Assembly: GCA_020725545.1 (NCBI GenBank)
Contig: DYEV01000005.1
Location: 1-41,468 of the forward strand
DNA length: 41,468 nucleotides
From: Desulfobacca sp.
GTDB taxonomy: Bacteria > Desulfobacterota > Desulfobaccia > Desulfobaccales > Desulfobaccaceae
Direction of reading: 5' to 3'
The notes beneath the pieces were generated by a model. That model searched no databases, was not told where the DNA came from, and saw only the letters and a list, made by a program, of their open reading frames with translations. A program made the translations under genes and the position numbers. This document shows, piece after piece, positions 3,818-7,757 of the stretch; the first letter of the stretch is position 1, and every line of letters starts with the position of its first letter.

Positions 3818-3890
3818 ACACTAACCTGCCACCCCGACCCGTTGGCGTCAACCAAAACCTCGTCATCCAGGCCGCCGCGCCGATCTTTCA

Positions 3891-3919
3891 TTGACAATTT
3901 CTTCCTGGCCAATTATATC
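3891..3919 (+). promoter_or_regulatory. Candidate moaA promoter (TTGACA-17-TATATC)
   Basis: A perfect -35 box TTGACA at 3891-3896 is followed after 17 bp by TATATC at 3914-3919, about 40 bases before the moaA ATG at 3959. Its position inside the longer in-frame reading (TTG at 3842) argues that the longer reading is not the real protein start. Confidence 0.5.
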
Positions 3920-3958
3920 ATTAAAAGCATATTTAACCGGCAGCCGGGGAAACGCCTC

Positions 3959-4939
3959 ATGGAAGACCAGCATCACCGCCAGATCACCTACCTGCGGCTT
4001 TCCATTATTGATCGCTGCAACCTGCGCTGTTTTTATTGCACGCCGGTGCAGGAGCTGGTCAAACTCCAGCATGCCGACATCCTCCGTTACGAAGAGTTGC
4101 TGCGGCTGGCCCAGGTCGCCGTGGCGGTGGGCATCAGGAAGATTCGGGTCACCGGCGGCGAACCTTTGATCCGTCTCGGCGTTGAATCTTTTCTGGCGGC
4201 TTTGGGGGCCATCCCCGGCCTGGAGGAGATCTGCCTGACCAGCAACGGCGTCCTGCTGGCAGACAAGGCCGCCGCCCTCTGGGAAGCCGGCGTGCGCCGC
4301 CTGAACATCAGTTTGGACTCCCTGCAACCGGAGCGCTTTGCCCGGATTACCGGCCGCGACCAGTTGGCTCGGGTTCTCGATGGCCTGCGCCTCGCCACCA
4401 CTCAGGGGTTTGAGCCCATCAAAATCAACTGTGTCGTTCTGCGGGGCATCAATGATGACGAAGTGGTGGATTTTGCCCGTCTGTCTCTAGATTACCCCTG
4501 GCATATCCGCTTTTTGGAATTTATGCCCATCGGCCACCCGCGGCGCCGATGGCAGGAGTACTATCTGCCAACCGCTGAGATCCAGGCTCGCTTGACTACT
4601 CTCGGCTCCCTCCAGAGGCTGCCGACGGTGGCCAATGGCGGACCGGCGGTCAGATACCGATTCGCTGGGGCGCCCGGCGAAATCGGCTTTATCAGTCCGG
4701 TGAGCCGCCATTTCTGCGAGGCGTGCAACCGCCTGCGCCTTACCGCCGACGGTCGCCTGCGGCCCTGCCTGTTCCAAGATGATGAAGTTGCCATCAAGGG
4801 CCCGCTGCGGGCCGGTGCCTCAGATGCCACTTTGCGAGACCTCTTCCGCCAGGCGATCTGCCTCAAACCATCCCGCCATCACCTCGACCACAGTTTAACC
4901 TCTCCGTGTCGCCGCACAATGGCTCGGATCGGAGGTTAA
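3959..4939 (+). CDS. moaA: GTP 3',8-cyclase MoaA (molybdenum cofactor synthesis)
   Basis: MoaA is the radical-SAM enzyme that, with MoaC, turns GTP into cyclic pyranopterin monophosphate, the first step of molybdopterin synthesis. From ATG 3959 the protein is 326 aa, the usual size. The radical-SAM cluster cysteines are Cys20, Cys24 and Cys27 (CNLRCFYC), followed by VTGGEPLIR. The C-terminal substrate-binding cluster is Cys253, Cys256 and Cys270 (CX2CX13C). The protein ends in the characteristic Gly-Gly needed for MoaA activity. An upstream in-frame TTG (3842) would add 39 residues unlike the family and would swallow a promoter candidate, so 3959 is preferred. No other moa genes lie nearby. 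Molybdoenzymes elsewhere in the genome are implied. Confidence 0.95.
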   Translation: MEDQHHRQITYLRLSIIDRCNLRCFYCTPVQELVKLQHADILRYEELLRLAQVAVAVGIRKIRVTGGEPLIRLGVESFLAALGAIPGLEEICLTSNGVLLADKAAALWEAGVRRLNISLDSLQPERFARITGRDQLARVLDGLRLATTQGFEPIKINCVVLRGINDDEVVDFARLSLDYPWHIRFLEFMPIGHPRRRWQEYYLPTAEIQARLTTLGSLQRLPTVANGGPAVRYRFAGAPGEIGFISPVSRHFCEACNRLRLTADGRLRPCLFQDDEVAIKGPLRAGASDATLRDLFRQAICLKPSRHHLDHSLTSPCRRTMARIGG

Positions 4940-5124: not shown

Positions 5125-6048
5125 ATGGATCGTCGGGAATTTTTACAGCGCGTCGCCGCCCTGGGTGTGTTGGCCGGGGCGGGCAAACTTTTGACCTTCC
5201 CTCCGGAGCTTTTGGCCATGGCACCGGCCGAGCGGCCGGAACCGGTTCTGGCTCTGGCCAGCGGGACCAATTATGCCCACCTGGTAGGGGATGCCATCCA
5301 GGCCTTGGGGGGGATGAAAAAATTCGTCAATCCCAATGAAGTGGTGGTGGTCAAGCCCAATATGGCCTGGGACCGCACCCCCGAGTTGGGCGCCAATACC
5401 CACCCCGTGGTGGTCCGCAAGATCGTGGAACTCTGCTTGGAGGCCGGGGCCAAAAAGGTCAAGGTCCTGGATCATACCTGCCATGACGCCCGCCGGGCCT
5501 ATGCCAACAGCGGCATCAAGGCCGCAGTGGAAGATATCAAAGATCCCCGGGCCGTGGTGGAATATGTGGATGAGCGCAAGTTTGTGGAAATGACTATCCC
5601 CAAGGCCAAGTCCCTGAAAAAATGGTCTTTTTATAAAGATATTTTGGAAGCCGACCGCTTCATCAATGTGCCGGTGGCCAAACATCATTCCGAAGCCCGG
5701 CTGACCATGGCCATGAAGAATATGATGGGGGCCATCGGCGGCTGGCGGGGCCGCATCCATGTGGGTTTGCACCAAAATATCGCAGATATGAATCTACTTC
5801 TGCGGGCTGATCTGACCATTCTCGACGCCACCCGCATCATGACCCAGGGCGGGCCCTCGGGCGGCAACCCGGAATATGTTCAGGTCAAAAACCTGGTCAT
5901 TGCCGGGGTGGACCCGGTGGCCATCGACGCTTACGGGACGACCACGCTCTTCGGTCTCCAGCCCCAGGATATGGGTTATATCATTAAAGGCTATGAATTG
6001 GGCCTAGGTGAGATGGATATCAATAAAATCAAAATATTATCAGTTTAG
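5125..6048 (+). CDS. Tat-exported DUF362-family protein
   Basis: The protein is 307 aa from ATG 5125, which follows a GAAGAGGA Shine-Dalgarno sequence; a TTG at 5098 in the same frame is less likely. It opens with a twin-arginine signal (MDRREFLQRVAALGVLAGAG) and then matches DUF362: VVVKPNMAWDRTPE, KVKVLDHTCHD, the NVPVAKHHSEARLTMAMKN stretch and a C-terminal GVDPVAIDAYGT. DUF362 proteins are often linked to iron-sulfur proteins, but their chemistry is poorly defined. This one lacks the ferredoxin domain many relatives carry. The Tat signal suggests it folds in the cytoplasm, perhaps with a cofactor, and acts outside. The membrane polyferredoxin gene starts 68 bases downstream on the same strand, so the two probably form one redox unit. 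Confidence 0.82.
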   Translation: MDRREFLQRVAALGVLAGAGKLLTFPPELLAMAPAERPEPVLALASGTNYAHLVGDAIQALGGMKKFVNPNEVVVVKPNMAWDRTPELGANTHPVVVRKIVELCLEAGAKKVKVLDHTCHDARRAYANSGIKAAVEDIKDPRAVVEYVDERKFVEMTIPKAKSLKKWSFYKDILEADRFINVPVAKHHSEARLTMAMKNMMGAIGGWRGRIHVGLHQNIADMNLLLRADLTILDATRIMTQGGPSGGNPEYVQVKNLVIAGVDPVAIDAYGTTTLFGLQPQDMGYIIKGYELGLGEMDINKIKILSV

Positions 6049-6116
6049 GAGTATAAAGGGCGGAGCTGGCAGGCCGGGCGCACCAGTTTTCCGGCCCCGA
6101 CCTTCAAAAATATTTT

Positions 6117-7757
6117 ATGGTGAACACCCACGATATATCAGAAACCGCGGCGGCGGACTCGCCGGTACCAATGCCAGAGGCTGAACCGGAGCAGAGTCCG
6201 CCACCGGTTTTCCCCTTGCCGGTGCCCTGGCGGGGTTGGGTTCTGGTCCGGCGGTTGAGCCAACTCTTTTTTCTCCTGCTTTTCCTGATACTGTTCCTGC
6301 AAGCCACCTATCAGGGCGAAGATCACCTCAAGTGGCCGGTGGATCTGTTCTTCCGTTTCGATCCGTTGCTTCTCCTGGAGCATACGTTGGCTACCGGCAG
6401 CATCGTCCCGAGCTTGTTGCTGTCGCTCCTGTTTGTCGGCCTGACCCTGTTTGTCGGCCGTTTTTTCTGTGGCTGGGTCTGCCCGTTGGGGACTACGCTG
6501 GATGGCTGCCGCCGTCTGCTCCGGCGCCACCGGCCCGACCCGCCCCCTGTTTTTAAACTGCGCCGGGTCAAATATTATCTCCTTTTCTTTCTCCTGGGGG
6601 CGGCGGTCTTTCACCTCAATCTGGTGGGATTGCTGGATCCCTTGTCCCTCCTGTTCCGGACCCTGGCCACGATTATCTATCCGGCCCTGTCATACGGACT
6701 GGAGGAGGCCTTTGCCAAGGCCTATGACTGGGGGCCGCCCCTGACCTATGTCAGCGAACCCGTCTATGGCTATCTGAAGGACACAATCTTGCCGTTTCGC
6801 AAGCCGGTCTTTCTTTTGCCGCTTTTGACCCTGACCATTTTTTTGACCATTGCCAGTCTGGAGCGGGTCGCCCCACGCTTCTGGTGCCGCAGCTTTTGCC
6901 CTTTGGGGGCGCTGTATGGCCTGGTGGCCCGATTTGCCTGGCTGCGCAAACGGCCGGTGAAACTCTGTCCTGATTGCGGTGACTGCCAACCGGTCTGCAA
7001 GATGGGGGCGATTCACCGTGAGGAAGCGCCCCGGCATCAGTCCGCCGAATGTATCCTATGTCTGGATTGCCAGGAGCATTGTCCGAAGGACCGGGTCGCC
7101 TTCCGCTTCGGTGGTAAAACACCGCGACCGGCCTTGGATCTGGGGCGGCGTCAGGTGATCACCGCGGCGGCGGCCGGGGTGGTAGCCGTGCCGTTCCTCC
7201 GCTTGGGGTCGTTGGCGCACCGTCCCGATGAGTTCCTGCTCCGGCCGCCGGGGGTGGCCTCGGAGGCGGACTTCCTGGCGCAATGCGTCCGCTGCGGCCT
7301 GTGTTTCAAAGTCTGCCCGACCGGTGCCCTGCAGCCCCTGGGTTTCGAGCAAGGTCTAGACGGTCTCTATACTTCCCGGCTGGTCCCCCGCTTGGGTTAT
7401 TGTGAATATAACTGCACCTTATGCTCTCAGGTCTGCCCCACGGGCGCCATTCCAGCCCTGCCCCTTGAGGTCAAGCAGGCCAGTCCCATGGGGACCGCTT
7501 TTATCAACCACTACCGCTGCATTCCTTACACCGAAGGGCGGGATTGCCTGGTCTGCGAGGAACACTGCCCCACGGCCCCCAAAGCCATCAGCTACTATGC
7601 CGGGGAAGTTCCCGACCGGCACGGCAAAAAAACGTGGGTGAAGCTGCCGGTGGTCAACCCTGAGCAATGCATCGGCTGCGGTATCTGTGAGAACAAGTGT
7701 CCGGTGGGCGGTGAAGCGGCTATCCGGGTGAAACGCTCCCTGCGCTTGGAGATGTAA
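6117..7757 (+). CDS. Membrane polyferredoxin, NapH-like and NapG-like regions in one chain
   Basis: This 546-aa protein has an N-terminal NapH/CcoG-like membrane half with about four or five hydrophobic segments, FCGWVCPLGT near residue 118 and FWCRSFCPLGAL near 255. Two cysteine motifs follow: CPDCGDCQPVC near 284 and CILCLDCQEHC near 311. A second segment, GRRQVITAAAAGVVAVPFLR at about 343-362, resembles the Tat-like start of NapG. After it come further cluster motifs: CVRCGLCFKVCPTGAL (about 390), CTLCSQVCPTGAI (about 433), CLVCEEHCP (about 475) and CIGCGICENKCP (about 518). NapG and NapH are usually separate and pass electrons from quinol toward periplasmic reductases. Here they appear joined. 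No catalytic nap gene is present. The partner is probably the DUF362 protein just upstream. The Shine-Dalgarno sequence is weak. Confidence 0.82.
   Translation: MVNTHDISETAAADSPVPMPEAEPEQSPPPVFPLPVPWRGWVLVRRLSQLFFLLLFLILFLQATYQGEDHLKWPVDLFFRFDPLLLLEHTLATGSIVPSLLLSLLFVGLTLFVGRFFCGWVCPLGTTLDGCRRLLRRHRPDPPPVFKLRRVKYYLLFFLLGAAVFHLNLVGLLDPLSLLFRTLATIIYPALSYGLEEAFAKAYDWGPPLTYVSEPVYGYLKDTILPFRKPVFLLPLLTLTIFLTIASLERVAPRFWCRSFCPLGALYGLVARFAWLRKRPVKLCPDCGDCQPVCKMGAIHREEAPRHQSAECILCLDCQEHCPKDRVAFRFGGKTPRPALDLGRRQVITAAAAGVVAVPFLRLGSLAHRPDEFLLRPPGVASEADFLAQCVRCGLCFKVCPTGALQPLGFEQGLDGLYTSRLVPRLGYCEYNCTLCSQVCPTGAIPALPLEVKQASPMGTAFINHYRCIPYTEGRDCLVCEEHCPTAPKAISYYAGEVPDRHGKKTWVKLPVVNPEQCIGCGICENKCPVGGEAAIRVKRSLRLEM

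Follow-up and report, generated by a model that had tools for sequence, protein, structure and literature searches.

A Tat-signal protein of the DUF362 family encoded next to a membrane-bound polyferredoxin (PFD) raises the question of what such a protein does outside the cytoplasm and why an electron carrier should accompany it. The two genes lie in the window, the whole stretch of 41,468 nucleotides of Desulfobacca sp. DNA that was analysed. The papers naming DUF362 that were consulted, from an open-access collection without most subscription journals, give no function for it; the open-access literature searched contains nothing combining DUF362 with twin-arginine and reports no nickel-pincer cofactor (NPN), metal or activity for any DUF362 protein found there. 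By sequence, no DUF362 structure was found in the PDB.

The first gene (5125..6048, + strand) encodes a 307-residue protein that matches PF04015 with 185 bits (Pfam gathering score 24) and the twin-arginine signal model TIGR01409 with 19.5 bits (cut-off 16.7), and in which the domain scan found neither a Fer4 domain nor an Fe-S motif, in agreement with the preliminary description of a Tat-signal DUF362 protein without a ferredoxin domain. The signal starts with MDRREFLQ (R3 R4; 5125..5148, + strand). Among the 31 proteins of the DUF362 alignment (A3), from which L085 and several of the window's close relatives are left out, all 31 match PF04015, R3 is invariant and R4 nearly so; L048 is the sole row without the twin arginine, which an upstream start restores there and likewise in L085. 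A DUF362 match is present in 40 of 40 relatives, and when 28 other genomes from the order were searched, 27 proved to have an orthologue with 70–93% identity, in G002 as a fragment; the exception is G020. Upstream, positions 3842–4939 encode a protein that by eye resembles a MoaA-type radical SAM protein and ends 185 bp before the DUF362 gene.

The second gene (6117..7757, + strand) encodes a one-chain NapH-NapG polyferredoxin of 546 residues, with five predicted membrane helices and seven 4Fe-4S sites. Its NapH-like half (6117..7106, + strand) contains four hydrophobic helices, the motifs FCGWVCP and CRSFCP and two ferredoxin motifs (C284–294 and C312–322); it is followed by an internal twin arginine (R344 R345; 7146..7151, + strand) before helix 5, a putative second, Tat-dependent insertion signal, and by a NapG-like half with four 4Fe-4S sites that is predicted to be periplasmic (7245..7757, + strand; NF007012, TIGR00397). 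The domain scan returned two Fer4_5 stretches and ferredoxin domains. NapH models fit the N-terminal half and NapG/MauM models the C-terminal half, all below their curated cut-offs: NF007012 and TIGR00397 cover residues 344–539, both under cut-off, and the NCBIfam NapH and NapG equivalogs score 89.7 of 234 and 98.5 of 269 bits. Twenty-eight of the 29 cysteines fall in seven sets conserved among relatives, corresponding to the seven 4Fe-4S sites, and in 29 aligned homologues (A4, which omits the fragments L007 and L077 and the close relatives L027, L034, L065 and L067) 27 of these 28 are invariant, the last nearly so, and the internal twin arginine is present in all 29; in a larger set it occurs in 33 of 35 rows, the exceptions being the two fragments. 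Helix 5 (residues 347–365) is the least hydrophobic, with a hydropathy maximum of 1.70 against 2.16–2.35 for the other four. The earlier claim of a one-chain NapH/NapG-like membrane protein with FCGWVCP, CRSFCP and several cysteine cluster motifs is confirmed in each of these respects. An AlphaFold2 (AF2) model of PFD built from 17 close homologues reached a pLDDT of 39.8 and was set aside.

A protein of this architecture has been described before. The NapH-NapG fusion Q1NSB0 of delta proteobacterium MLMS-1 has five helices with a twin arginine before helix 5 (Tooke 2017; PMC5449189) and seven 4Fe-4S clusters, of which three lie inside and four outside (PMC5449189); Tat exported reporters fused to its membrane region, and RR to KK variants were also made (PMC5449189). 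All sequence features listed there are common to the MLMS-1 and window proteins, the match being one of described architecture, with RR344–345 of the window protein standing directly before helix 347–365 and its 28 cysteines grouped identically; the sidedness of its clusters (three and four) is carried over from PMC5449189. By its architecture the window fusion matches the Sec/Tat dual-targeted PFD family and is of the quinol-dehydrogenase (NapGH-like) type. It resembles the NapGH quinol dehydrogenase in having a NapH-like membrane half and a NapG-like tetracluster half; unlike NapGH, it is one chain with an internal twin arginine and falls short of the napH and napG cut-offs. The usual client of NapGH is nitrate reductase (PMC5449189); no nitrate reductase gene was seen beside the window PFD. 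The accessible text of PMC5449189 contains no DUF362 and names no partner for the MLMS-1 protein. The proposal that the pair forms a quinol-linked conduit to DUF362 is partly supported: a NapGH-like PFD of a published family speaks for a quinone-linked conduit, and electron transfer with DUF362 is a step that we infer.

The association of the two genes was surveyed in 148 genomes of the phylum, taking as DUF362 places those scoring at least 140 bits to the window protein (n = 82) and calling a pair where PFD lies no more than 3 kb downstream, on the strand of the DUF362 gene. PFD follows at 68 of the 82 places and in 64 of 73 genomes; weaker DUF362 matches are accompanied by PFD in nine of 13 cases at 104.5–140 bits and in none of 15 lower. 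Among the 14 misses, four stand at a contig edge (G008, G086, G046 C216 and G129) and G138 has a PFD piece scoring under the cut-off. G090, G124, G151 and G157 keep both genes apart, as G129 may do, given its contig edge. In a second phylum, nine of 16 DUF362 genes adjoin PFD, with PFD first in three, and in Parabacteroides distasonis (L047) a PFD-type 4Fe-4S protein starts 6 bp after DUF362. The window's own genome (G000) has a second pair on contig C29, adjoined by an aldo/keto reductase (L048, 1081–2403) with the Tat-like start NRREFVKAVG. Because the two genes are found together throughout the order, elsewhere in the phylum and in further phyla, the pair is not due to chance, and the pairing across phyla by which the preliminary description had proposed to judge a dedicated system is found. 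An all-against-all comparison of 38 loci yielded no third gene common to them: most of what forms the other large clusters is short ORFs that, judged by coordinates, overlie the two genes, and the remainder occur in at most three loci outside the order. By eye, some members of the order carry a QueG-like 4Fe-4S protein inserted between DUF362 and PFD (L032, 3190–3993; L065, 5778–6543, where its reading frame is split; L066, 5853–6578), and three loci from three genera (L071, L078 and L081) share ORFs upstream of DUF362 that resemble carboxypeptidase-regulatory-like and right-handed beta-helix secreted proteins.

Records of Parabacteroides and Bacteroides, as well as G102, also have PFD relatives next to Fe-S aldo/keto reductases that begin with an RR-type start, and PFD is therefore not specific to DUF362. 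Both kinds of partner would suit alcohol/carbonyl redox chemistry. In G102 (L119, 6708–12050), larC, larB, a Tat-type Fe-S aldo/keto reductase and PFD form a run on a single strand. At the Latescibacterota locus L095, no DUF362 lies by the PFD, and the genes upstream are different by eye.

What DUF362 itself might do is suggested by its predicted fold. The AF2 model of the window protein (23 sequences) has a pLDDT of 85 and a pTM of 0.87, and a Foldseek search with it gave 18 matches at E ≤ 0.001 (top E 9e-7) to LarA-type racemases or LarA-like proteins, including 4nar, titled merely as a Thermotoga protein. By VIA, the model aligns with the LarA N-domain at Z 18.9 and an rmsd of 2.5 Å over 205 residues; Z is 16.2–18.9 across 12 LarA-type entries, against 5.8 for the next unrelated fold. 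The LarA-aligned fold stops at residue 279 of 307, and the LarA C-terminal domain is missing. The model therefore matches a LarA N-domain fold, which the window DUF362 would share; that DUF362 and LarA (Lar_N, DUF2088) belong to one Pfam clan, CL0471, was already known (PMC11770544). Lar_N itself gave no Pfam match to the window protein at E values up to 10.

In the LarA of Isosphaera (LarA Ip), NPN is tethered through K183, H199 provides the fourth ligand to nickel, and H107/H173 act in catalysis (PMC11851776). Profile alignment with hhalign places H188 of DUF362 (5686..5688, + strand) on the catalytic H173 and K198 (5716..5718, + strand) on the tethering K183, both residues being invariant in 31 of 31 sequences, and a Viterbi alignment places H212 (5758..5760, + strand) on the nickel ligand H199; a His 13–14 residues past K198 is present in all 31. 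With 31 DUF362 and 20 same-phylum LarA sequences, H188 and K198 pair with their LarA equivalents at P 0.0029, in an alignment that ends before H212; with 13 distant DUF362 sequences added, P is 1.2e-4 and the -norealign Viterbi mode also pairs H212, the corresponding residues of LarA L109 being H170/K180/H196. The hhalign probabilities are low (11–55%), global alignment failed (P 0.63) so that only local modes align, and the pairing of H212 depends on one alignment mode together with the bridge class described below, the realigned mode putting it out of register. A K-x-H...KN pattern with a downstream His is found by regular expression in 12 of the 13 distant sequences. No invariant His or Arg stands at the DUF362 positions of the second catalytic His and of the substrate-carboxylate Arg (R73) of LarA. 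The invariant H188 and K198, and less firmly H212, thus probably occupy the places of the catalytic His, the tether Lys and the nickel-ligand His of LarA; conserved pocket residues, to which the preliminary description had tied its proposal, are present in H188, K198 and the His 13–14 residues later in all 31 sequences. DUF362 shares with the LarA family the N-domain fold and the H-K-H triad; unlike LarA, the window protein is Tat-exported and tied to an Fe-S electron carrier.

The bridge class consists of 21 DUF362 proteins containing a ferredoxin. Each has FKxH (F in 20), KN and a third His, spaced much as in LarA, and a CxxCxxC motif about 11 residues past that His. Over the triad they align with LarA across 49 ungapped columns at 27% identity, and they align with the Tat DUF362 class at P 2.2e-10. 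Pfam matches below threshold occur in both directions (Lar_N on one ferredoxin DUF362, E 4.3e-4; DUF362 on LarA, 6.9e-4), and Lar_N reaches 20.0 of 23.3 bits on L049, a ferredoxin-containing protein with no Tat signal. These proteins resemble the window protein in the PF04015 domain, the triad and the availability of Fe-S clusters, which they carry in-chain and which PFD would supply to the window protein.

If DUF362 holds NPN, its occurrence might follow that of the cofactor genes. The window's genome encodes LarB (303 bits), LarC (440 bits) and LarE (247 bits), all over cut-off, LarC adjoining ArgJ and SfsA and LarB and LarE lying on contigs other than that of LarC. It has no LarA over cut-off, and its sole Lar_N match (E 3.1e-4) fits the ferredoxin DUF362 on C18, itself E 4.3e-4. 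LarC is present in 126 of the 148 genomes, DUF362 in 132 and Lar_N (E < 1e-10) in 84. In the 57 good-quality genomes without LarA, DUF362 occurs in 42 of 48 with LarC as against one of nine without (p 1.5e-5); counted by family, DUF362 is present/absent in 29/3 with LarC and 1/3 without (p 0.010). Across 120 good genomes the figures for DUF362 are 98/8 with LarC and 6/8 without (p 3e-5), and those for LarA 58/48 and 5/9 (p 0.26); these Fisher p values take genomes as independent, kinship being handled in the family-level count. Of the six good genomes that have DUF362 and lack LarC, five contain LarA, a hint that their assemblies are incomplete. Paired-type DUF362 taken alone shows no association with LarC (63/63 vs 10/12, p 0.82, in 148 genomes; p 0.78 in good genomes), and one genome (G049) has the DUF362-PFD pair and no LarC: the association holds for DUF362 as a whole, not for the paired subtype alone. 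Among 14 control genomes, LarC is found in six, four of them with DUF362, and DUF362 in one of the eight others.

Tentatively, and at slightly less than even confidence, we read DUF362 as a nickel-pincer redox enzyme for which PFD would mediate electron exchange with the quinone pool; the binding of NPN, the passage of electrons, their direction and the class of substrate are inferred. Tat is suited to proteins that must fold with their cofactor inside. DUF362 and PFD would form a self-contained periplasmic redox module. PFD would be inserted first by Sec, which would install four helices and leave three clusters facing the cytoplasm, and then by Tat through the internal twin arginine, which would place helix 5 in the membrane and four clusters outside, yielding a single-chain NapGH-type conduit from the quinone pool to the periplasm. 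DUF362 would fold in the cytoplasm as a LarA-N-domain protein, be loaded with NPN from LarB, LarE and LarC, and be exported folded by Tat. Outside, NPN would take a hydride from, or give one to, an alcohol/carbonyl-type substrate, and electrons would be exchanged with the NapG-like clusters of PFD, as opposed to racemases, which return the hydride to the same substrate; in LarA the hydride goes from substrate to NPN and back (PMC7583248, PMC11851776). A LarA-type site beside Fe-S clusters could let electrons leave and so make an oxidoreductase. The direction could be either periplasmic alcohol oxidation to quinone or carbonyl reduction by quinol. Somewhat more cautiously still, DUF362 in general may be a non-LarA NPN client, an NPN-dependent oxidoreductase family passing hydride-derived electrons to built-in or PFD-supplied Fe-S clusters. 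No prior DUF362–NPN proposal was found in the open-access literature, most subscription journals lying outside that search.

Rather unlikely, and the strongest of the alternatives, is that the periplasmic redox pair works with another cofactor or a bare metal in the DUF362 pocket, the triad having come from a LarA-like ancestor and being used differently. The Bacteroidota speak for it and pose a real problem for any claim that NPN is universal in DUF362: in the Bacteroides ihuae control DUF362 occurs without LarC, so that NPN could be general there only if LarC had been overlooked, and the DUF362 of Parabacteroides retains the triad intact. In the plasmid collection, no Bacteroides or Parabacteroides LarC stands among the 60 of 98 records listed in one search or the 20 listed in another, and those genomes may still have LarC. 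Also in its favour, D71/R74 of LarA (L109) are not conserved, K77/N79 of DUF362 occupying that region, and six good-quality genomes without LarA retain LarC without DUF362 (G044, G081, G116 and G144 of family f18, G062 and G092), which reflects either missed genes or yet another NPN client. Against another cofactor stand the retention by DUF362 of all three cofactor-contacting residues, the closer correspondence of LarC with DUF362 than with LarA in the 120 good genomes, and a Streptomyces linear plasmid on which DUF362 lies about 5 kb from larB-larC, together with a DAHP synthase, a chorismate-binding enzyme and a cyclase, and with no LarA match within 22 kb. In that plasmid region (Streptomyces sp. 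NBC_01450, NZ_CP109481.1; L138, 6278–14377), the six genes just named stand beside a 2299-residue ORF with condensation-like sequence by eye, and the whole looks like a natural-product cluster carrying its own nickel-pincer genes. Against the NPN reading, 20 LarC neighbourhoods showed no DUF362 nearby.

It is improbable that DUF362 is no enzyme at all and helps PFD in export or maturation, for instance as a periplasmic cluster or folding guard. The close neighbourhood and the two-gene module without a common third gene would fit such a role, whereas PFD relatives stand beside Tat aldo/keto reductases without any DUF362, other DUF362 proteins have their own ferredoxin, and the conserved DUF362 positions form an active-site-like set. 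That PFD serves another terminal enzyme elsewhere in the genome, with DUF362 a linked bystander, is very improbable and disfavoured, for although NapGH normally serves nitrate reductase (PMC5449189) and PFD relatives pair with partners of different kinds, the genes are adjacent in 68 of 82 places, are both kept in the four genomes where they are apart, and stay linked in swapped order in three.

Beyond the preliminary description, the analysis adds the Tat motif inside PFD, the published family to which PFD corresponds, the LarA-like fold of DUF362 with its triad and the link to nickel-pincer genes; the match of the DUF362 model to the LarA N-domain and the placement of the triad by profile alignment are new here. 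About 15% of surveyed genomes have larB, larE and larC without larA (PMC11796402); Synechocystis genes make active NPN, LarA is missing from most cyanobacteria and the protein using the cofactor was called unidentified (PMC11796402), and Haloferax has been flagged likewise (PMC8305020). A nickel-pincer redox function of DUF362, if true, would take NPN chemistry beyond racemization and epimerization and out of the cytoplasm, and would account for genomes that encode LarB, LarC and LarE yet no LarA. A widespread family that keeps the triad, tracks LarC where LarA is missing and has its own electron wire makes the question of the NPN user testable with existing co-expression systems. Such a function would give DUF362 a role and the published dual-targeted polyferredoxin a partner, and DUF362 may be the missing user of the nickel-pincer cofactor in many microbes.
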